From: Bdellovibrio bacteriovorus W
GTDB taxonomy: Bacteria > Bdellovibrionota > Bdellovibrionia > Bdellovibrionales > Bdellovibrionaceae
DNA: 64,000 bases
Direction of reading: 5' to 3'
NCBI GenBank assembly: GCA_000525675.1
Contig: CP002190.1
Location: 1,178,001-1,242,000 of the forward strand
In this document: positions 6,231-60,973 of the stretch, in pieces
How the letters are laid out: every line of letters starts with the position of its first letter
Position numbering within the stretch: the stretch's first letter is position 1
Program-made: the position numbers and the translations under genes
Notes under the pieces: model-generated
Databases searched by the model: none
The model's input: the letters and a program-made list of their open reading frames with translations, nothing else
What the model was told of the DNA's origin: nothing

Positions 6231-7847
6231 TTAAAACCCACCCGTGGAGCCCACCTTACGGCGATCTTCCTCACCAAAAGGAAGAACGTCTTCTGGTGCC
6301 TCATAAGGGCGTGCTTCACGAGCCGATGACTGAGGGAAGTTAAGCACCTTTGAAGCTTCCGACTGTGAGCCAGAGGCGACTTGAGGGGAAGCAGCTGCGC
6401 TCACCCCATGAACGATGCTGCTCAAGGCGCCAGCTAGATCAGACATCTGCTTTGCTTGCGCACTGATCTCTTCTGAGGAGGCGGCAATTTCTTCGGAACT
6501 TGCAGCATTGCCTTGAGAAACTTCATCCAGTTGATTCATGGCACGGCTAATTTGCTCAATGCCTGTTGTCTGCTCATTGCTAGCAGCAGAGATTTCGCTA
6601 TTCAGGCTTGAAACCTTTTGAACAGAAGAGACGATGCTCATCAGGGCTGCTCCAGATTTATCAGCCATCTTACAGCCATTGTCGACCTTATGGGCGCTAT
6701 CGCGAATCAGCTCGCCGATATCTTTTGCGGCAATCGCTGAACGTTGAGCAAGGCTGCGAACCGCGTCAGCAACGACGGCAAAACCTTTTCCTTGTTCTCC
6801 AGCTCTAGCTGCCTCAACGGCGGCATTCAGAGCCAAGAGATTGGTCTGAAAAGAAATATCATCAATCACTGCAATAATCTCTTCGATTTTCTTCGAAGAG
6901 GCCGCGATTTCATGCATAGAAGAAATCAAAGATCCCATCTCGCGATGCCCTTGTTCAGCAATGGCACAAGAGTCATTGGAAAGAGTGGCTGCTTGTTTTG
7001 CATGATCCGAGTTGATTTTAACCATGGCAGAGAGTTCTTCTAAAGATGCTACAGTCTCTTCCAAAGAAGCTGCGGATTGAGTGGAGGTTTCAGAGAGAAC
7101 CTGTCCCGCTCCGCTGAGTTGATGGATGGCAAAAGAAAGTTGTTGGCCGGAACCGGCGAGATCTCCGACAACTTGACCAATAGATTTAGAAACACGATGA
7201 GCAATAATCATCAATGTCGCAAATAATGAAAGCGCACAGATTAGTGCAATGCCAATCAGAACTTGGGCTTGTCGCGCGCGTTCGTCTTTTTGCAGCTGAT
7301 TGTTTTCAACAGAGATTTTTTCAAAAAGACGCATATTCGCCGCGATAGCATCTTGAACAGAGATGGCTAGGACGTGCCACTCTCCGAAGTTCATGTATGT
7401 GTACGCCTTGGCATCAGACTCAGGGCTTGTGTCAGCAATGAGTTTTAAGAGCTCTTCGGTCTTAGCGTAAAAGAGATCCTTATCGGCTCGCGCCTTGGCG
7501 TAGTTTTTTTCCTCTTCTTCAGAGTGATAAGCTTTTTCATAGTCTTCTTGTGCTTTTTTAAATTGCTTAAAAGCCCCGCCGGCGCGGTCTAAGAATTTTT
7601 GACGAGCTTCAGGGTTTTCATTCGAGGCAAGGGCTGCCCAAATAAAGTATCCCACACGTGCTCTCTGAGTACCCATCTCTCCAAGAGAATCCATATTGGG
7701 AATAATCTGGGTATAGGTCTCATTTAATAAACCACCGAGTTTATTCATTGAGTGCAGAGAAATACCTGTTAAGAGGGCAAAGGCTACAACTGGAAGAAAT
7801 GCAGAAATAAAAAGCTTACCCTTTAAACCACGAAACCAAGATGACAT
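6231..7847 (-). CDS. Methyl-accepting chemotaxis protein
   Basis: 538 residues. Membrane segment 1 is at about 12-32 and segment 2 at about 196-217. Between them is a 160-residue helical periplasmic sensor of the four-helix-bundle type. No clear HAMP domain follows; the chain goes into a long coiled coil. The signalling hairpin tip is unmistakable ([20 protein letters not shown], then [19 protein letters not shown]). It should relay ligand binding to CheA/CheW. After the coil come a Ser/Ala-rich linker, VLNFP, and an acidic tail ending in Gly-Phe. The chemoreceptor at 49648-51294 has the same arrangement, which suggests a shared tail function. Confidence 0.95.
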
Positions 7848-51608: not shown

Positions 51609-52661
51609 CTAAAAACGGAAGCGCAGATTGAGTTTTAAGTAAGGTGCATTTTCAACTAAAACTGCATTCGTTGGGTCGCGCTGATAGTTCTCATCTGAAA
51701 AGAAACGACGATCAAAAGCGTAGCCAGATTCAAGTTCTACGAAAGTAATTTTGTTCAGCGGAGACTTTATTCCTAGGAAGAGTTTTTTCTCGTCATAGAA
51801 AAGACGATCATTTTTATTGGCTCTACCAAAAATATAATAAGTCATCTGTGAAAAATCTAAACCTGTATAAACTTTTGCATAGTCGTTGATATGATAGTTA
51901 AGACTTCCTTGAATGATCCAAGGAAAGAGAGTGAAGAACTCTAAACTCCAGTGGTCGATAAAGCGCCAACTGATATTGGCAAACGGCGCCCCATAGATGC
52001 CGCGAAACTTCTCTGAAGGGGTATGAAAGTATGCAAATCCGGGTAGGGGGATATTATTGAGAATCGGACGATTGTTGGAATAATCCAAAAGCAATAGCCA
52101 ACGCCCATCTGGGGAAGACGAGGGGTAGGAATATAGCGCTGTGGCGCCCAGAGTGCTCACACTTCCATCTTTAAAGGGACGATCGCTGGCAGAACCATAT
52201 CTTGCTGAAACAGACCACACACGGTCGTTCTCAAGCATTTTAGTATAACCTAAACCCAGCCTTAGGTCGTAAAGCTCTGAGATATTTGATTGAGTTGGGC
52301 GTACCGAGAGTTGGTTTCCAGAAAGGCTGACGGAAACGATTTCTTTTTCTGTTTTCCAAACGGGTGTGGAGATACTCAGTGCTTGATAGGTCATTTGACT
52401 CTGAGAGTTTTGGAATTCGGAACTGGAATGAAGCAAGCCTGTGTAACTAAAAGTGGGCCTCTGATATTTCGGTGGCGTGAGGCCAGCTCCTAGATCGAAG
52501 GCTTGAGAGGTCGTCGAAAATAGCAGAGAAGAGGTCAATGTAAAAAGGCATAAAAGAGTTCGCCAAGGTCTGGCTGTACCTAAGAGGCCGCAATTTAGTT
52601 GGCGACCATTGTTTTTACGACTTAAAATAGAGGCACTATGAATACAAATTCTGAAGATCAT
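51609..52661 (-). CDS. Outer-membrane beta-barrel protein, DUF6268-like
   Basis: About 350 residues. The start is uncertain; ATG 52661 precedes a long basic stretch, then a signal peptide (LLCLFTLTSSLLFSTTSQAF). The mature chain is rich in alternating strands with aromatic girdles (WSVSARYGSASDRP, RWLLLLDYSNNRP, YYIFGRANKNDRLFYDEKK) and ends RFRF, the terminal Phe expected for Bam-dependent insertion. The family name is a best fit only. The 5' end overlaps the divergent GNAT-like gene by about 24 bases. Confidence 0.7.
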   Translation of the reverse strand: MIFRICIHSASILSRKNNGRQLNCGLLGTARPWRTLLCLFTLTSSLLFSTTSQAFDLGAGLTPPKYQRPTFSYTGLLHSSSEFQNSQSQMTYQALSISTPVWKTEKEIVSVSLSGNQLSVRPTQSNISELYDLRLGLGYTKMLENDRVWSVSARYGSASDRPFKDGSVSTLGATALYSYPSSSPDGRWLLLLDYSNNRPILNNIPLPGFAYFHTPSEKFRGIYGAPFANISWRFIDHWSLEFFTLFPWIIQGSLNYHINDYAKVYTGLDFSQMTYYIFGRANKNDRLFYDEKKLFLGIKSPLNKITFVELESGYAFDRRFFSDENYQRDPTNAVLVENAPYLKLNLRFRF

Positions 52662-52949
52662 TATCACATCCGTAATTCTTTTTTTAGTTTAGTTGAGCTT
52701 TCGTTATTGGCAAAGCTTTATGAAGAAAACTGCACTCCTATGGCCAGCAAAGATTCTTTGAATAATAATTCAGTGGCTCAAACCCTTTTAAAAATGAAGG
52801 CGACAGAGAACCAAGGGGAGCTTAGAGTTGCTATCCACGGTTCTGATCCGATCGGATTTTATTGGCAATACGAAGGAAAAACTTTAGCTCATTGGGTTCA
52901 TCCAGAGCATCAGGGGCAGGGTGTAGAGCAACGACTGCTTTCCATGTAA
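52638..52949 (+). CDS. Short GNAT-like protein, probably C-terminally truncated
   Basis: 103 residues. The end HWVHPEHQGQGVEQRLLS is the acetyl-CoA-binding motif A of GNAT acetyltransferases (usual form VxPxxRGxGxGxxLL). Normal members continue another 40-50 residues after this, but here the stop follows at once. Upstream residues give the preceding strand (PIGFYWQYEGKTLAHW). It may be a decayed gene or a small partner of the next protein. It is 8 bases ahead of the epimerase-like gene. Confidence 0.55.
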   Translation: MNTNSEDHYHIRNSFFSLVELSLLAKLYEENCTPMASKDSLNNNSVAQTLLKMKATENQGELRVAIHGSDPIGFYWQYEGKTLAHWVHPEHQGQGVEQRLLSM

Positions 52950-54035: not shown

Positions 54036-54305
54036 TTAGAGAATTTTTGACATCTTCTTTTTAAAGTCGATCGTTACCTGTTGAAGAGTGTCTTGCAGTA
54101 AGCAATCAAACATGTCTTCGGCCGGCGTCTTATAGAGCTGAGCTAGTTTTTTTAGAGTCTTCATCGGAGGAGTTGAAATGCCGCGCTCCCAGTTGGAAAT
54201 AAATTGGGGAGTCGAATATCCAAAGTGATCCGAGACATCCTTTTGCGATAGGCCTGCTTCAAGTCTTTTGGTTTTGATGTATTCAGAGAATTTCATTTTA
54301 GTCAT
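54036..54305 (-). CDS. XRE-family HTH regulator
   Basis: About 89 residues from ATG 54305; ATG 54296 also fits. Core EYIKTKRLEAGLSQKDVSDH, then FGYSTPQFISNWERGISTP, is a textbook XRE helix-turn-helix. A C-terminal helix (KKLAQLYKTPAEDMFDCLLQ) follows. It is the last gene behind the ThiF-like and hydrolase genes on the minus strand, 71 bases after the hydrolase, so it probably regulates that cluster. Confidence 0.88.
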   Translation of the reverse strand: MTKMKFSEYIKTKRLEAGLSQKDVSDHFGYSTPQFISNWERGISTPPMKTLKKLAQLYKTPAEDMFDCLLQDTLQQVTIDFKKKMSKIL

Positions 54306-54376
54306 TTCCATCCAGCTTTCAGAATATGATCCATTCGTCGTGATAATACTACCGCTGTACATACACTATCACAAGT

Positions 54377-55117
54377 TTACTTTTTAAAGAAATTTTGCGC
54401 TACGTCTGAATTTTCAAAATGCAGATAGTGGCCACCTTTTGTAAATTCAGTGTAATTTACATTAGGATATATATTTCTCCAGCTCTCCACAGACTTACGG
54501 TTTCGGACGAGTGCATCATCAATAGAGTATAAAATGGTAGCTTTTCCGGGCCATGAAATATTTGGTTCAGGAGTGTTTAAATACTCCATGTAAACCTTCA
54601 TGAAGCTGCTGATACTCAATGCTGGTTTAGAAGCGGACAACGCCTCGTGTCGAGAGCGAGTTTCTGTGCATCGCCAATAGTGAGAAGTGAGGCGTAGATC
54701 GGCGGACAATTTAAAGATAAGAACCATTTTCTCATCAATGGTCTTTTCTTTCCAGTAATCAAAACCTAAGGCAGACTCCGGAAACATTTCCTCTTCAAGC
54801 GAGGTGAACGAGGAAAAGCTATGAAAAGGGGAGTTTAAAAAACGTACTTCCTCGATGAGATCTTGGACACCGGGCAATGCCGCTGCTGCGATCTGAGAAC
54901 CAAAGCTATGGCCTAAAAGTGTTAGTTTAGATTTAGAGATTGCGTACTGGGCGCGGATAGTTTCTTGAGCCCAATATTTAAGATCGGTAAAACCCATATT
55001 CAAGGGTTGATCGATAAAAAGTACGTGAGGAAATAAATTTTCAAACTGGGCGGCCTCTACTTGAGAGTGAAGCCCGGGGCCCATATGAAAGAAAATAGAA
55101 GTTTTCTGCTCTTGCAT
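54377..55117 (-). CDS. Alpha/beta hydrolase of the proline-iminopeptidase-like type
   Basis: 246 residues. FFHMGPGLHSQ near the start matches the HGGPG oxyanion motif. LLGHSFGSQIAAAALPG holds nucleophile Ser71. Candidate Asp and His lie in YSIDDALVRN and KGGHYLHFEN. No signal peptide. The ATG is 1 base after the TAA of the ThiF-like gene, so the two are tightly coupled. It may cleave or load the product of the adenylating enzyme; that is inference. Confidence 0.85.
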   Translation of the reverse strand: MQEQKTSIFFHMGPGLHSQVEAAQFENLFPHVLFIDQPLNMGFTDLKYWAQETIRAQYAISKSKLTLLGHSFGSQIAAAALPGVQDLIEEVRFLNSPFHSFSSFTSLEEEMFPESALGFDYWKEKTIDEKMVLIFKLSADLRLTSHYWRCTETRSRHEALSASKPALSISSFMKVYMEYLNTPEPNISWPGKATILYSIDDALVRNRKSVESWRNIYPNVNYTEFTKGGHYLHFENSDVAQNFFKK

Positions 55118-55118
55118 C

Positions 55119-55964
55119 TTATGTCTTTACGGTTGCCGTTTTAAGTTCCAATGTTAAGGGATCTAAAACCAAAAACTCCGGCAATTCGGGAGTTCTTGGA
55201 GCAGAGTCGCCGCCTCTAATATAGCCTAAATCGTTGAGGACACGAATTGCTAGTAAAGATTGCCCTAAATAGCAACTTGCTCCAAAAATAGGAATACCAC
55301 CCCGTATTCTAATTTCATCAATGAAGTCGTTCAGATTCGAGTTTTTCATGTATTCAGGAAGGGGATGGCCGAGGATAGCCAAAAGATTCTCAAGGCTTGA
55401 GTCTTTTAGCAGGGATCCCAGAAAGTCCTCTGGGGTAAAAGAGCTGGTTGGAGAATATTTATAGAGGTGAATTCCAACTCCGACTACAAGGGTCGTGTAT
55501 ACGGGAATGCCTTTTTTTCTGGCAGCATTTAATAGGTGAATCTGTTCCTGAATATGTAGAACGTCGATCTCATTGATGACGACATCCATATTTTCAACAA
55601 AGGCCTCAGCGTTCTTTGCGTTTATACCCTCAGGGAACTTGTTTAAGGTAATGCTCGGATCGATATTGATAATCTCTTTAACGGACGTGTCTAGCTTCTT
55701 TTCACCGACGCTAGCAATGGAGGCGATAACTTGCCTATTGATGTTGCTGACTTCGATGACGTCGTTGTCGGCCAGATTAAAATGTCCCACACCAAGGCGG
55801 GCAAAGATCTCAGCGATATTGCTGCCCATTCCTCCAAGGCCAGCAACTCCTATTTTTAGGTTCTTTAGTCTAGTTTGCCCCTCTACGCCTTGGGTCCAGA
55901 AGTGATTGCGTTTGGTTCTTTCGAAATAGAAGTCGTCAATAGCCTTGGAAATCGTTAATGGCAT
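55119..55964 (-). CDS. ThiF/MoeB/E1-like adenylating enzyme
   Basis: 281 residues. ATP site: IGVAGLGGMGSNIAEIFARL (residues about 38-57), then NLADNDVIEVSNINRQ with the conserved Asp and NRQ (about 63-78). The family usually adenylates a C-terminal carboxylate of a protein or peptide, and members such as MccB modify short peptides. A CxxC zinc pair is not found, and there is no rhodanese domain. The only clear downstream Cys is in GASCYLGQS. GGGAGG lies 7 bases ahead of the ATG. A partner ubiquitin-like protein is not encoded nearby. Confidence 0.9.
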   Translation of the reverse strand: MPLTISKAIDDFYFERTKRNHFWTQGVEGQTRLKNLKIGVAGLGGMGSNIAEIFARLGVGHFNLADNDVIEVSNINRQVIASIASVGEKKLDTSVKEIINIDPSITLNKFPEGINAKNAEAFVENMDVVINEIDVLHIQEQIHLLNAARKKGIPVYTTLVVGVGIHLYKYSPTSSFTPEDFLGSLLKDSSLENLLAILGHPLPEYMKNSNLNDFIDEIRIRGGIPIFGASCYLGQSLLAIRVLNDLGYIRGGDSAPRTPELPEFLVLDPLTLELKTATVKT

Positions 55965-56085
55965 TTTGTAGCCTCCCGTCGACAGATTAACATAAATATA
56001 TTTATAAACAAAATAAAGTAAAATTTAGACTTTTGAACATCAAAAAACATGACGATAGAGCGGAAATAGATTCGAGGAGTAGTCA

Positions 56086-56841
56086 GTGAGTCAATTCCGC
56101 CTAGTCATTTTGGACAATGTTAAAGCTCAGTTGGATTCTTGTGAAGCTCAAAAAGTTTTTATGGACATGCTGTTTGCAAAACAAAAGAACTTTCTGAGAA
56201 CAGACGAAAATTATGTAGTTATGGACAAGCATGACATGATAGGGACTCACTATCTAATCTATGACACTAGTGATTTCCAAAATCCAACTCCAATCCTAGC
56301 CATTCGTACGACATTTACCAGCAGAGCCTCTGCTCATAAGTTAGAGACTCCATTGGTGTCATTACTACCTCATATGGACGATAGGGCTCGGGGGTTGTTT
56401 ACAGACTTTAAGAGACGGCATCAAGAGATTGTGGACTGCAATGCTTGGTTTGTTGACCCTCAGTTTTCAAAGAAGCACTCTGGCTTAAGACTTTCAGATA
56501 TTGCGTACCTAATGGTGGTCATGAATATCCTTCAAGAAGGTGCTGGCAACTTTATAGGATGCGCTAACGAGAAGTACTCAGCATCCAGATGGTTAGCTGG
56601 GATGGGAGATACACCGCAAGATTCGTTCTTTGAGCACCCTGCGGTTCAGTGCATTCATAAGCTTGTTCTTATGGAGAATTTCAACCTTTATCACTTTGCT
56701 AATATCTTTGCTCAGTACGAAGAATTAATGAAGGACTTGGTGGAGATTCGACCATCGAAAGAAGGGCGAGTCTCCCTTTACGAGTTTACGAAAAGCACTC
56801 TCGCACCGTACTTGTCTAAACAAGAGCCAAGGGCGGCCTAG
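56086..56841 (+). CDS. GNAT-fold acyltransferase candidate, autoinducer-synthase/FeeM-like
   Basis: 251 residues from the GTG at 56086 (GAGGAG 7 bases ahead). The N-terminal half looks like the autoinducer-synthase/N-acyl amino acid synthase fold: VVMDKHDMIGTHYLIYDTSD followed by PILAIRTTFTSRA, where an Arg and acidic residues line up with those positions. Then DCNAWFVDPQFSKKHSG and a helical C-terminus. I give the family only as likely; a generic GNAT is the alternative. It diverges from the ThiF-like gene across a 121-base AT-rich region and overlaps the next minus gene by 26 bases tail to tail. Confidence 0.5.
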   Translation: MSQFRLVILDNVKAQLDSCEAQKVFMDMLFAKQKNFLRTDENYVVMDKHDMIGTHYLIYDTSDFQNPTPILAIRTTFTSRASAHKLETPLVSLLPHMDDRARGLFTDFKRRHQEIVDCNAWFVDPQFSKKHSGLRLSDIAYLMVVMNILQEGAGNFIGCANEKYSASRWLAGMGDTPQDSFFEHPAVQCIHKLVLMENFNLYHFANIFAQYEELMKDLVEIRPSKEGRVSLYEFTKSTLAPYLSKQEPRAA

Positions 56842-57715
56842 ATATTTTTTCAGAGCGCAAATTCAGTTCATAGCGCGTTCTGACGATGTCATTTTTAGAT
56901 AGCGACTCTGACTTCGGAAATATCGGAGTCAATCCCGCCAAGTAGGGAATCCACGCTGTGCAAATCATGCGATAGCGTAAGAGCAGATCAATCTTATGGG
57001 GTTCACCGATCAGATCTTTATGTTCTGATAACGGAAGAGTCATGGTTAAGATGCATTTCTTCCCAACGAATTTACTTTCACACTCGAAATTATTATCAAA
57101 GTAGTCAAAGTTCTTCGAAAGAGTTTGATATGCATCATGATGATCTAAAGAAAGCCCAATCTCTTGTCCTAGAGGGCGATTTTTTAAGCTTAGAAAGATC
57201 ACTGCTGCCAGAGTATCGAGTTCGTCTTTACCTAGTCCTTTTTCAACAAGCTTAGCTAAAAGGTCCGCAAAGAAAGTGAGATTGATCTTAAGATCTGCTT
57301 GAACATACATTTCAGAAGTGACATTCAGCTCTGAATACACCTGATTTGTAAATAGATCACCGCGAGTCAGTTTCAAATATTTATAAATATGTTCAGATGT
57401 GCGCACGAAACTATTCTGGTTTTTTAAATAGCGTTCTGGCAAAGCTTCAAGCTTTCCGTGAGCTCGTTCTTTTGCAAGTTTTAGATCATAGTTACCGCGA
57501 AACAAATCATTATCATTGATGCCGAGACTGCTTGAGAGCTTTAGGAAATGTTTTTCGGTCGGGATAAAATCCAGGTTTCCATTCCACCATTGAAGTGTCT
57601 CAAGCGCTGAAATATTAAATAACTCCGGCAGACGTTTTAAGGGTAAGCCTATTTCTTCGATGAGTTGGCGAAGGCGCGAGTCAAAAAGATCGGGAGAGCT
57701 AAGCTCAGAGCTCAT
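56816..57715 (-). CDS. HTH protein with C-terminal sensor-like domain
   Basis: 299 residues. The first 70 residues are a weak XRE-like helical region (RLRQLIEEIGLPLKRLPELF). The rest has mixed strands and helices with YFDNNFECESKFVGKKCILT and LLLRYRMICTAWIPYLAGLT, like a ligand-binding regulatory domain. I do not recognise it. It overlaps the downstream edge of the acyltransferase gene and is translated from ATGA overlap with the short HTH gene ahead of it. Probably a regulator of the cluster. Confidence 0.7.
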   Translation of the reverse strand: MSSELSSPDLFDSRLRQLIEEIGLPLKRLPELFNISALETLQWWNGNLDFIPTEKHFLKLSSSLGINDNDLFRGNYDLKLAKERAHGKLEALPERYLKNQNSFVRTSEHIYKYLKLTRGDLFTNQVYSELNVTSEMYVQADLKINLTFFADLLAKLVEKGLGKDELDTLAAVIFLSLKNRPLGQEIGLSLDHHDAYQTLSKNFDYFDNNFECESKFVGKKCILTMTLPLSEHKDLIGEPHKIDLLLRYRMICTAWIPYLAGLTPIFPKSESLSKNDIVRTRYELNLRSEKISRPPLALV

Positions 57716-57996
57716 TCCGTGTCCTCTTCAAAAAACTGTAAAGCCAAGGCGTTTGCCTGAGCGATATTTCCAAACTGAAGCAGGTCGTTGATGTCTTCTT
57801 CTTGCAGCTGAAGGATGGGGGCGAGTTTTTCAAGAGTCTCAAGCGAGAAATCAAGTTCCCCATTTTCCATGTGTAAGTACTGATCCTGATCCAAAGCTAG
57901 AGCTTCGGCGATATCCGGGGAAGATAAGCCTAGGAATTCCCTCTTCTGGCGTATATGCGCCGATAAATAAAATTTAGAGAAGGGATTTTGTTCCAT
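57712..57996 (-). CDS. Short XRE-family HTH protein
   Basis: 94 residues from the ATG at 57996 (AAGGAA upstream, distant). Core SAHIRQKREFLGLSSPDIAE then DQDQYLHMENGELDFS is XRE-like. The C-terminal part is acidic and helical. Its stop overlaps the ATG of the longer HTH protein, so the pair may act together. Confidence 0.8.
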   Translation of the reverse strand: MEQNPFSKFYLSAHIRQKREFLGLSSPDIAEALALDQDQYLHMENGELDFSLETLEKLAPILQLQEEDINDLLQFGNIAQANALALQFFEEDTE

Positions 57997-58128
57997 GAGC
58001 GTAGAGGTTCCTTTTACCGTCAATCCTTGAAGGAAAGGCTAATCAGGGATGGGTTGGTTGTAAAGGATAGAGCGGCTAAGTAACTCAAATTTAGGATGCG
58101 TCGCGTAGTTTGTCGAAGTAATCCCTTA

Positions 58129-59538
58129 TTATGATGCCACCAAAAGAATACACATGAGCGTGAAGAGGCACACCCAGCTTGTTCGGTCTTTTATTGCGTA
58201 TACAACAGGGTCATCCGCAATCATATCCCTGCTTGTCTTCAACCACGTCAATGAAATCCAGTACAGTAGGACAGGGGTCGATAGCCATAAAATTGTAGGA
58301 TTACTGTAAAGGGCTCTCACATCGTTACTTTGCAAGTAAAGTAAAATGACAAGGGTCGACAGCAGGCCAGCGCCAATACCTAGCGCAAAAACAACGGCGT
58401 AGTCACTTTGGCGATACCCTCTACCATCAATAGTGATTTTGTTTTTACTGCGCGAAATTTCTGTACATCGCTTAACACAAGCTAAGCTAAAAAAGAAAAG
58501 TGTAGAGAAGCTGAGCAACCACTCGGAAACTAGAATACCTGTGGCAGTAGAGCCCGCAAAAATTCTTAAGGTATACATCGACGATAAAATGATAATGTCG
58601 AGAATCTCCATCTTTTTGAGATAGAAAGAATAGAGTAAATTAAGAATAAGATAAGTGAGAATTACGAGTGCATAACTCAATGGGAGAAAAAGAGTTGTTC
58701 CAAAGGCCACGGCTAAAAGAGCTGGTAGTAATAAAATTCCCCACAAAATGCTCAAAGATCCAGATGCAAATGGGCGGTTCTTTTTGGTTCGATGGTTACG
58801 ATCGGCGCTGAGATCTAAAAGATCATTTAGAACGTAGACAAAAGAAGCCGAAGCACTAAACCCAACAAAAGCAATAAGACCTGTTTGGATAATAGTAGCG
58901 TCAAAAATCCTATGACCAGCTATTGCAGGCAAGAAGATTAACGCATTCTTGACCCATTGATGAGGGCGAAGCTGCTTGATAAGAGCCCTTGTGGTTTTCT
59001 TGCGATCAAAAATTGTATCAGCAGGTTTATTGAATTTTCTAATTTGAGATTGAACCAGTGAAGATGGGTTTACCGCAATAATATCAGAAGAATGTTTCCA
59101 GATATCCAAATCGGCTTTGGAGTCTCCGGCATATACGAAGTCTTGCCCCTGAAGGTGGCTTTGGATCGCCTTCAATTTATTAGTTCCTTTTAGATTCAAG
59201 CCCTCTGAAGTACCTAAAGCTAAATCGAAGAGGCCTAAATGACCGGCAATCCGATCTACCCATTCTTGAGGGCTTGCACTTGCTAGGATGACTTTACCGG
59301 AATTAGCTTTCTTCCATGCCTTGATTTTTTCAATCAACTCTTCGCGGTAGGGAAGTTCTTTTGGATCTAATGATGTCACAGAGGCTAATCGAAGCTTTAA
59401 ATATGACTTCCCTTGGAGTGCCCAAAAAAAGCTTGAGAAAATAAGTAAAGGATTTTTTTTAATGGCTTTAAGCCATTGCTCTAAGAGTAAATCAGTTTTG
59501 ATTAAACAGTCATCAAGATCACAAACAAAATTTTTCAT
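58129..59538 (-). CDS. HAD hydrolase-UbiA prenyltransferase fusion
   Basis: About 469 residues from ATG 59538, which follows the preceding gene's TAG by 1 base. Residues 1-195 are a HAD phosphatase: DLDDCLIKTD (motif I), ASASPQEW (II), YAGDSKADLDIW (III). Residues about 196-469 are a UbiA-type membrane enzyme with RPHQWVKNALIFLPA and the Asp motif NDLLDLSADRNHRTKKNRPF. Such fusions resemble decaprenyl-phosphate 5-phosphoribose synthesis enzymes, with the HAD part removing phosphate. It probably makes a lipid-linked sugar for envelope polymers. Confidence 0.88.
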   Translation of the reverse strand: MKNFVCDLDDCLIKTDLLLEQWLKAIKKNPLLIFSSFFWALQGKSYLKLRLASVTSLDPKELPYREELIEKIKAWKKANSGKVILASASPQEWVDRIAGHLGLFDLALGTSEGLNLKGTNKLKAIQSHLQGQDFVYAGDSKADLDIWKHSSDIIAVNPSSLVQSQIRKFNKPADTIFDRKKTTRALIKQLRPHQWVKNALIFLPAIAGHRIFDATIIQTGLIAFVGFSASASFVYVLNDLLDLSADRNHRTKKNRPFASGSLSILWGILLLPALLAVAFGTTLFLPLSYALVILTYLILNLLYSFYLKKMEILDIIILSSMYTLRIFAGSTATGILVSEWLLSFSTLFFFSLACVKRCTEISRSKNKITIDGRGYRQSDYAVVFALGIGAGLLSTLVILLYLQSNDVRALYSNPTILWLSTPVLLYWISLTWLKTSRDMIADDPVVYAIKDRTSWVCLFTLMCILLVAS

Positions 59539-59539
59539 T

Positions 59540-60973
59540 CTAATTCTCACTCACGAGTTTAGACTTTCGCTCGAAAAGTCTGTAGATGCCAACGGACTTC
59601 GTCAGTTGAAATTCAGAAAGGGCATTTTCAGTCATTTTATATCTTTTCCAGTTGGACGGGTCGAAGATTACCGCGTCAATAGAGTAGGTATCTAGAGCTT
59701 TTCCAAGAGCTTCATGGGTGAATGCAAAATGCTTGTGGGCCTCTTTAAATTGATAAGAGATAAAACCCTGAAGGCGGTATTTAGGAACTCCCCAAAAGAC
59801 GGCGTCCTCAGGAGCTAAAAAATCAGTGCCAGGAGGGAGATGTCCAGCGAGTTCTTCATAGTCACGTCCTGTCGTATCTTTTGTGAAGGTGTAGTGGACG
59901 TTGCTCATCCACTGGGTCACAAAGAAAACGCATAGCAATCCTACTGCTACTTTCGGACGTTTTTTTAGAAGATCTACTAATCCAACCACTGTCAGGAATG
60001 TGATGAGAGGTATAACAATATTTAGATATTTCGAAGTTTTTCCATGTGCAATCAGAGCTAGAAAAAAACACGCCCCAAAGGTGAATATGGCTGAGTTGCG
60101 ATAATCTTTCCAAATAGTTTTTCGAGCAAAAAAGATGGAGCTTGCAAATAGCAAAGTGAATCCAATTTCTTTAGGTGAATGTAGGTAGCGGCGCTGCTCA
60201 TCAATAAGGTTAAAAAGATAATGGAGTATGGATCCATGCTCACTTCCAATATCTTGAGCATGCTTAAATTGATTAATCATCAATGTAAAATCAGCCATGC
60301 TATGGACGCCTAGGAGATAGAACAGAAATCCCGTTGCGGCAATTGTACCAAAGATGAGAAATGGCAGAAAGCGACGATGGTAAAGAAGGAGGATGCAGCC
60401 TCCACCAGGAATAATCACCCCGTTAAGATGGTTTCCAATAGCCATGCTTGCAGCAAAGCCGGCAATAAGGAGGTCCGACCATCTGAGATCTTTTAAGTAT
60501 CGGTTTAAGAACAGTAGGCAAAGACTTCCGTTAAAGGCCACTGCGATTTCAGGTCTGTAGACGAAAGAGAATTCGTAGATATGGCCATTTGTTAGAAGTA
60601 AAAGGGCAAAGAGTAGAAAATAGTCTTTAGAAAGTTTTAGATATTTGAAGGCCAGAGCCCATGTGCCTAATAAGAGAATGGTATAGAAAAGACTAACGGA
60701 TTTTACGGCCGCCGCCGACCACCCGAAAACGGCAATAAAAAGAGCACCGACATAAAGATATAACTTATGAGTAAATATGAATTTTTCCTCTCCTTGCCAC
60801 CAGCCCCTAAATGCATCGCTGCGCATAACGCCATCTTTTAAAAGAAAATATGTCGGTTCGGCGAGGATGCCGTCATCAACGTGGATGAGGCGGTGATAGA
60901 AGGAATATAAAAGAACCAGAAGCGTGATGCCTAATGCCGAATATAAAATCTTAGAATTTAAAAAAGACTTCAT
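59540..60973 (-). CDS. GT-C family membrane glycosyltransferase (GT39-like)
   Basis: 477 residues, about ten membrane segments. The first periplasmic loop carries VDDGILAEPTYFLLKDG, the acidic motif of GT-C enzymes such as ArnT. These use a lipid-linked sugar donor. A C-terminal periplasmic part of about 110 residues ends ...RLFERKSKLVSEN. It is directly upstream of the HAD-UbiA gene, which could supply the donor. Acceptor unknown. Confidence 0.82.
   Translation of the reverse strand: MKSFLNSKILYSALGITLLVLLYSFYHRLIHVDDGILAEPTYFLLKDGVMRSDAFRGWWQGEEKFIFTHKLYLYVGALFIAVFGWSAAAVKSVSLFYTILLLGTWALAFKYLKLSKDYFLLFALLLLTNGHIYEFSFVYRPEIAVAFNGSLCLLFLNRYLKDLRWSDLLIAGFAASMAIGNHLNGVIIPGGGCILLLYHRRFLPFLIFGTIAATGFLFYLLGVHSMADFTLMINQFKHAQDIGSEHGSILHYLFNLIDEQRRYLHSPKEIGFTLLFASSIFFARKTIWKDYRNSAIFTFGACFFLALIAHGKTSKYLNIVIPLITFLTVVGLVDLLKKRPKVAVGLLCVFFVTQWMSNVHYTFTKDTTGRDYEELAGHLPPGTDFLAPEDAVFWGVPKYRLQGFISYQFKEAHKHFAFTHEALGKALDTYSIDAVIFDPSNWKRYKMTENALSEFQLTKSVGIYRLFERKSKLVSEN

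Follow-up and report, generated by a model that had tools for sequence, protein, structure and literature searches.

The closest described counterparts of the locus studied here are OxzAB of P. rubra, TyzACB, and TrzAS of M. tuberculosis, in which a FeeM/LuxI-fold amino-acid N-acyltransferase adjoins a ThiF-like ATP-dependent enzyme. TyzA and TrzA acylate amino acids from acyl-CoA, FeeM and BjaI being the nearest folds of TyzA (compare ACT below), and the ThiF homologues TyzB and TrzS form oxazolones by ATP-dependent cyclisation; TrzS cyclises before it desaturates, and the saturated oxazolone accumulates under oxygen limitation (PMC10404671, PMC12856293). N-acyl amino acid or oxazolone lipids whose roles are unresolved are the products of Oxz/Tyz/Trz and of the stieleriacine clusters (PMC10404671, PMC12856293, PMC12479983). 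Methyl esters of N-acyl amino acids (NAMEs) are already known and reportedly take no part in AHL signalling (PMC11580390). The stieleriacine and NAME systems resemble the cassette described here in that N-acyl amino acids are methylated or their synthase is clustered with ThiF or methyltransferase genes, but a dedicated regulator is not reported in the available parts of these papers (PMC12479983, PMC11580390), whereas our cassette has one, which we call REG.

A second point of comparison is given by the LuxI/LuxR circuits, such as those of BjaI, RpaI, LasI and EsaI, in which a LuxI-fold synthase is closely linked to an HTH regulator that has a sensor domain for small molecules, as is predicted for the cluster that we analysed in a 64,000-nucleotide stretch of Bdellovibrio bacteriovorus W (the window). 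Compared with Oxz/Tyz/Trz, the cassettes described here add a linked sensor-regulator, a methyltransferase can replace ThiF in them, and their proposed synthase, ACT, is not recognisable by sequence profiles. Compared with LuxI/LuxR, REG joins an XRE-type HTH to a predicted H-NOX/VirS/V4R-like fold, whereas LuxR joins an autoinducer domain to a GerE HTH; moreover, the signal is expected to be an amino-acid derivative, and there is an additional enzyme, dependent on ATP or SAM, for the proposed capping. We give about an even chance to the reading that the cassette is a small-molecule synthesis-and-sensing unit that follows LuxI/LuxR logic with a non-LuxR receptor and with an acylated amino acid derivative as its signal.

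Six ORFs were confirmed in the window (54036-58023). The minus-strand run begins with a ThiF/E1-like adenylating enzyme (55119-55964; Pfam ThiF, 6e-34), proposed to be a carboxylate-activating cyclase, continues after a single base with an alpha/beta hydrolase (54377-55117; Pfam Abhydrolase_1, 6.5e-9) that has a GHSFG nucleophile elbow and whose S71 and G73 are invariant among relatives, and terminates in an XRE-type regulator (54036-54362; Pfam HTH_3, 6.4e-13) that is kept in the cassettes of relatives. ACT (plus strand, 56086-56841), a proposed N-acyl-amino-acid synthase that starts with GTG preceded by GAGGAG and ends in ...PRAA, diverges from ThiF across 121 bp (55965-56085), a putative promoter region containing the palindrome ATAAATATATTTAT at 55992-56005. 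The 3' end of ACT overlaps by 26 bases that of REG (minus strand, 56816-57715), the proposed receptor-regulator, which in turn overlaps by 4 bases H103 (minus strand, 57712-58023; Pfam HTH_31, 3.8e-6), a small XRE-type HTH protein found upstream of REG in relatives. A previous sequence-only reading had given the gene positions, the 1-base gap between ThiF and hydrolase, the divergence of ACT and the 26-base overlap, all of which were confirmed. It had also placed a last HTH gene overlapping REG, which is indeed present, but the end that it gave, 57996, is an internal ATG (possibly an alternative start) and the first start codon is a TTG at 58023.

Sequence comparison did not place ACT: it had no Pfam match at E <= 1, profile searches against PDB sequences returned no LuxI or FeeM chain and nothing useful among solved structures, and neither Autoind_synth nor FeeM nor any other relevant PDB chain was matched at the level of sequence. 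The AlphaFold2 model (pLDDT 88, pTM 0.88) was more informative. Foldseek ranked FeeM (2g0b) first (E 8e-6), and a second structural aligner gave RpaI (Z 17.1), BjaI (16.2), LasI (15.2) and FeeM (14.6), AHL synthases and FeeM thus being the top fold matches with Z 14-17 over 176-201 residues. ACT is confidently predicted to have the LuxI/FeeM variant of the GNAT fold, in line with the GNAT/FeeM-like acyltransferase candidate of the sequence-only reading, and it is this predicted fold that ties ACT to LuxI and FeeM. CoA-dependent AHL synthases are its nearest folds, since RpaI and BjaI head the Z ranking; ACT shares its fold with FeeM but differs from it in sequence, with ~9% identity and no sequence-profile relation detected. 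GNAT folds acylate many different substrates.

For REG, a protein of 299 aa, Pfam gave just a sub-threshold HTH match, and no LuxR domain was found by the Pfam search in REG or its relatives. In the AlphaFold2 model (pLDDT 84), the C-terminal ~190 residues (aa 100-292) matched the VirS sensor 8rcw, solved with a drug lead bound, with Z 12.8, H-NOX (over ~170 residues) and soluble guanylate cyclase with Z ~12, and TRAPP proteins with ~8; distant REG homologues show a weak Pfam V4R match (2.4e-5). REG is predicted to consist of an HTH and a small-molecule sensor fold and, taken with the fold of ACT, this makes plausible, and largely supports, the earlier suggestion that the locus builds and senses an acylated or adenylated small molecule. 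The likeness to H-NOX (Z ~12) would also suit a true H-NOX, that is, a haem-based sensor of NO or O2 controlling lipid synthesis. However, VirS, whose ligand is drug-like, scores equally, and the sole conserved histidine of the sensor domain, H109, lies at the domain start and is absent from the second of the two clades described below. With no conserved haem-ligating histidine, haem binding is unlikely, and we consider a haem-based sensor very improbable.

The cluster is more than a chance grouping, since at least eight other genomes in the family have the same genes side by side. ACT homologues occur in 14 of the 66 family genomes, nearly all within ~3 kb of a ThiF homologue, and the set of XRE, H103, REG, ACT, ThiF and hydrolase is present in eight further genomes (L022, L023, L024, L049, L050, L051, L053 and L054 in the synteny table). 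These eight loci show several gene orders and orientations, with ACT and REG always tail to tail and mostly with overlapping 3' ends, an arrangement also seen in some LuxI/LuxR pairs. In the second clade, ACT and ThiF are accompanied by a PLP enzyme and by a REG whose C-terminus is recognisably V4R-like, and some genomes contain one cassette of each clade. ThiF, hydrolase and acyltransferase, the grouping put forward by the sequence-only reading, therefore co-occur in relatives instead of being scattered; that three-enzyme grouping recurs, but the near-obligate unit of ACT and the 299-aa HTH protein had been overlooked.

The strength of this unit was assessed with a REG profile built from ACT neighbours and then run genome-wide irrespective of ACT. 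Strong matches numbered 26 in 141 genomes of the order, and 24 of them adjoin ACT; the other matches were weak and nearly all limited to the HTH part. One of the two strong matches away from ACT is cut by a contig end, and the other is a solo REG (G012) at a locus that in a sister genome is occupied by ACT, ThiF and the PLP gene. Over 18 loci, the correlation of pairwise distances is r 0.92 between ACT and REG, compared with 0.52 between ACT and ThiF. At the level of the phylum, 89 of the 369 Bdellovibrionota genomes sampled, about a quarter, have ACT. We tabulated 48 ACT loci, sampled from the better matches, partly related to each other and including 20 from outside the order: REG lies within 3 kb of ACT in 42 and within 1 kb in 39, and the six that lack it include four with a different protein family of 235-251 aa that has no Pfam match. 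The linkage of ACT and REG is a functional association, which says nothing on the chemistry.

The same linkage and regulation would be just as expected if the cluster made a metabolite under a regulator of its own without any role between cells, and this counts against the signalling model. In such an ordinary specialised-metabolite cluster, the N-acyl amino acid or oxazolone would serve as antibiotic, surfactant or membrane lipid, and REG, H103 and XRE would be local regulators. Lipids of this kind are the products of the Oxz/Tyz/Trz and stieleriacine clusters, and the tailoring repertoire does vary between cassettes, but REG is tied to ACT more tightly than any tailoring gene is, has a predicted small-molecule sensor fold, and persists alone where the biosynthetic genes were lost; we judge this alternative possible but less likely than not. 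Other neighbours in the cassettes are a fatty-acid desaturase, Haem_oxygenas_2, acyl-CoA dehydrogenase, PLP enzymes, a PGA_cap protein, and GAF and other histidine kinases. The desaturase, Haem_oxygenas_2, acyl-CoA dehydrogenase and PLP enzyme are handlers of acyl or amino-acid parts and support a synthesis-and-sensing cassette.

ThiF and hydrolase, in comparison with the near-obligate ACT and REG, are exchangeable tailoring genes. Among the 48 tabulated loci, 27 have ThiF, 14 a methyltransferase, none both and seven neither (Fisher p 2.4e-7, with relatedness ignored), and on the ACT tree the state switches between ThiF and methyltransferase at least five times, at least three of them forced by well-supported branches. 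AU tests showed an exchange of ThiF with respect to ACT as well as to REG: G060 goes with G058 and G059 by ACT and REG and with G062 and G000 by ThiF, and the ACT and REG of the window group with G006 and G034 whereas its ThiF does not. By sequence, the methyltransferase profile is nearest to a mixture of small-molecule methyltransferases (one unnamed, phosphoethanolamine N-methyltransferases and, lower, juvenile hormone acid O-methyltransferase), so carboxyl methylation stays putative.

The adenylation residues of the ThiF-like protein are intact: R19, the glycine-rich loop (G42, G44, G47), N74 and N76-R77-Q78 (NxNRQ), K90 and D134 are invariant in relatives, and D66 is near-invariant. Its scores fall far under the NCBIfam cut-offs for ThiF, MoeB, TcdA and Rv1355c-type families; a second ThiF homologue in the genome of the window (G000:C1:1836419) is presumably a housekeeping TcdA-like protein. 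The ThiF domain was matched by E1-E2 models of PADLOC, as would be expected of an E1-like system for defence or for the modification of peptides or proteins, of MccB-like, bacterial ubiquitin-like or CBASS Cap2-like type. These matches are, however, generic to the ThiF fold, the single Cys of the protein is non-conserved and the alignment of relatives contains no conserved Cys, no E2, JAB, ubiquitin-like or precursor-peptide gene was found in the neighbourhoods read (for peptide genes above the very short), and the partner of ThiF is a LuxI-fold acyltransferase by prediction. An E1-like system of this kind is thus extremely improbable, and the peptide contemplated in the sequence-only reading found no support, nor did a ubiquitin-like partner or the suggested use in attack on prey.

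Under the signalling model, ACT would N-acylate an amino acid, with acyl-CoA or acyl-ACP as the donor of the fatty acyl group, a reaction suggested by its predicted fold. By analogy with TyzB and TrzS, the carboxylate left free in this N-acyl amino acid would then be adenylated by the ThiF-like enzyme at the expense of ATP, after which the amide oxygen would close an oxazolone (azlactone) ring. In Oxz/Tyz/Trz, a flavin desaturase of the nitroreductase family (FDO) lies beside ThiF or is fused with it, whereas the cassettes here are without it and have an alpha/beta hydrolase or a PLP enzyme; PF00881, the corresponding domain, occurs at one distant site in the genome of the window and, in 13 relatives, was not found close to any cassette. 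Membership in Oxz/Tyz/Trz oxazolone biosynthesis was rejected on the absence of the FDO, and a ring made where no dedicated desaturase is close by would remain saturated. The methyltransferase that replaces ThiF in other cassettes would plausibly yield a methyl ester, and capping by either enzyme would give a neutral, AHL-like molecule; that the two never occur together among the tabulated loci supports a shared substrate. The hydrolase is a candidate for opening, recycling or editing the product. REG, given its predicted fold and its observed linkage, would bind the product and act together with H103 and XRE in controlling the cassette and its targets.

The exchange of ThiF subtypes between near-identical ACT-REG pairs implies that REG may sense the product of ACT itself, or that the subtypes make the same thing. 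The former corresponds to a variant of the main reading, in which REG senses the plain N-acyl amino acid and ThiF with the hydrolase, or the methyltransferase, inactivates, exports or diversifies the signal. It agrees with the co-diversification of ACT and REG, which ThiF follows less closely and with phylogenetic swapping, and with locus L085, which contains ACT, REG, H103 and XRE and where neither ThiF nor methyltransferase was found. Against it, one or other capping gene is present in 41 of the 48 loci, as though capping were nearly required, and we regard the variant as possible but doubtful.

Returning to the capped product, we put at slightly less than even the likelihood of a new class of autoinducer circuit across Bdellovibrionota, in which the N-acyl amino acid produced by a LuxI-fold synthase is capped at its carboxylate by ThiF-type cyclisation or methylation and read by a haem-free, H-NOX-fold XRE receptor encoded tail to tail with the synthase, the exchangeable tailoring genes creating chemical dialects. 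If true, this would give N-acyl oxazolones and methyl esters, the function of which is an acknowledged open question (PMC10404671, PMC12856293, PMC11580390), a possible role and would add an H-NOX-fold receptor to the known autoinducer receptors. The open-access literature searched contained no LuxI-like circuit in Bdellovibrio, none of LuxI/LuxR type in predatory Bdellovibrionota, and no link among the cassette genes. It is, to our knowledge, an open question whether these predators respond to a diffusible signal that they make themselves, and the presence of ACT, usually with a receptor candidate, in so many of the sampled genomes of the phylum makes it directly testable.

As for the genomic setting, the cassette is all that lies in the window between the flanking epimerase and HAD-UbiA genes. 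In G006, G015, G009 and G021 these two genes are ~10-15 kb apart and in opposite orientation, and in G006 the cassette is on a contig other than theirs, so the cassette seems to move between sites. No ACT relative was found in the phage records, plasmid records or viral contigs searched, which led us to rule against a phage or plasmid origin. Within the divergent ThiF/ACT promoter, the palindromes are AT-rich and unremarkable, and a promoter scan gave no result above chance. The 10-bp word GATAGAGCGG, on the plus strand upstream of ACT (56054-56063), has its only other copy in the window upstream of H103 (58066-58075), two copies being found against 0.10 expected, and is a possible operator, recognised post hoc.

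Among homologues of ACT, the predicted LuxI/FeeM-fold N-acyltransferase, across the phylum Bdellovibrionota, 27 of 47 proteins terminate in -Ala-Ala, compared with 17 of 503 background ORFs, and in the window this end is encoded at 56836-56841. The same terminus is also present at loci where the end of the ACT gene does not overlap REG, the proposed receptor-regulator gene, and it is similar to the LAA terminus of ssrA tags. By analogy, it could be a candidate ClpXP degron, which would imply rapid turnover of the synthase.

ACT and REG also occur separately. REG stands alone at L117 (G012, 6684-7565), flanked by FKBP, HAD, MFS and PAS kinase genes, whereas between the same flanks L030 (G015) carries ACT, ThiF (the E1-like adenylating enzyme) and a PLP enzyme; judged from this gene content, L117 is a deletion in which the putative receptor was retained. 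Conversely, 4 loci (L052, L093, L094 and L118) have ACT but lack REG, and share a protein family of 235-251 amino acids (alignment A8) that gave no match in Pfam comparison, frequently lies close to an XRE gene and is possibly an alternative receptor. In other families of the phylum, REG-like genes adjoin ACT as tandem duplicates (L127, L130, L132, L134, L138, L140 and L141).

The word GATAGAGCGG occurs upstream of ACT (56054-56063) and upstream of the small XRE-type gene H103 (58066-58075), the only 2 copies in the 64-kb window (0.10 expected), and is a possible operator.

At the cassette flanks, a GNAT-like ORF of 103 amino acids (52638-52949), which overlaps an upstream extension of the epimerase ORF and terminates mid-domain, looks like a truncated acetyltransferase gene. 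On the other side, a UbiA-type prenyltransferase with a fused HAD domain (58129-59550) borders a region whose two flanking genes are separated by 10-15 kb in relatives.
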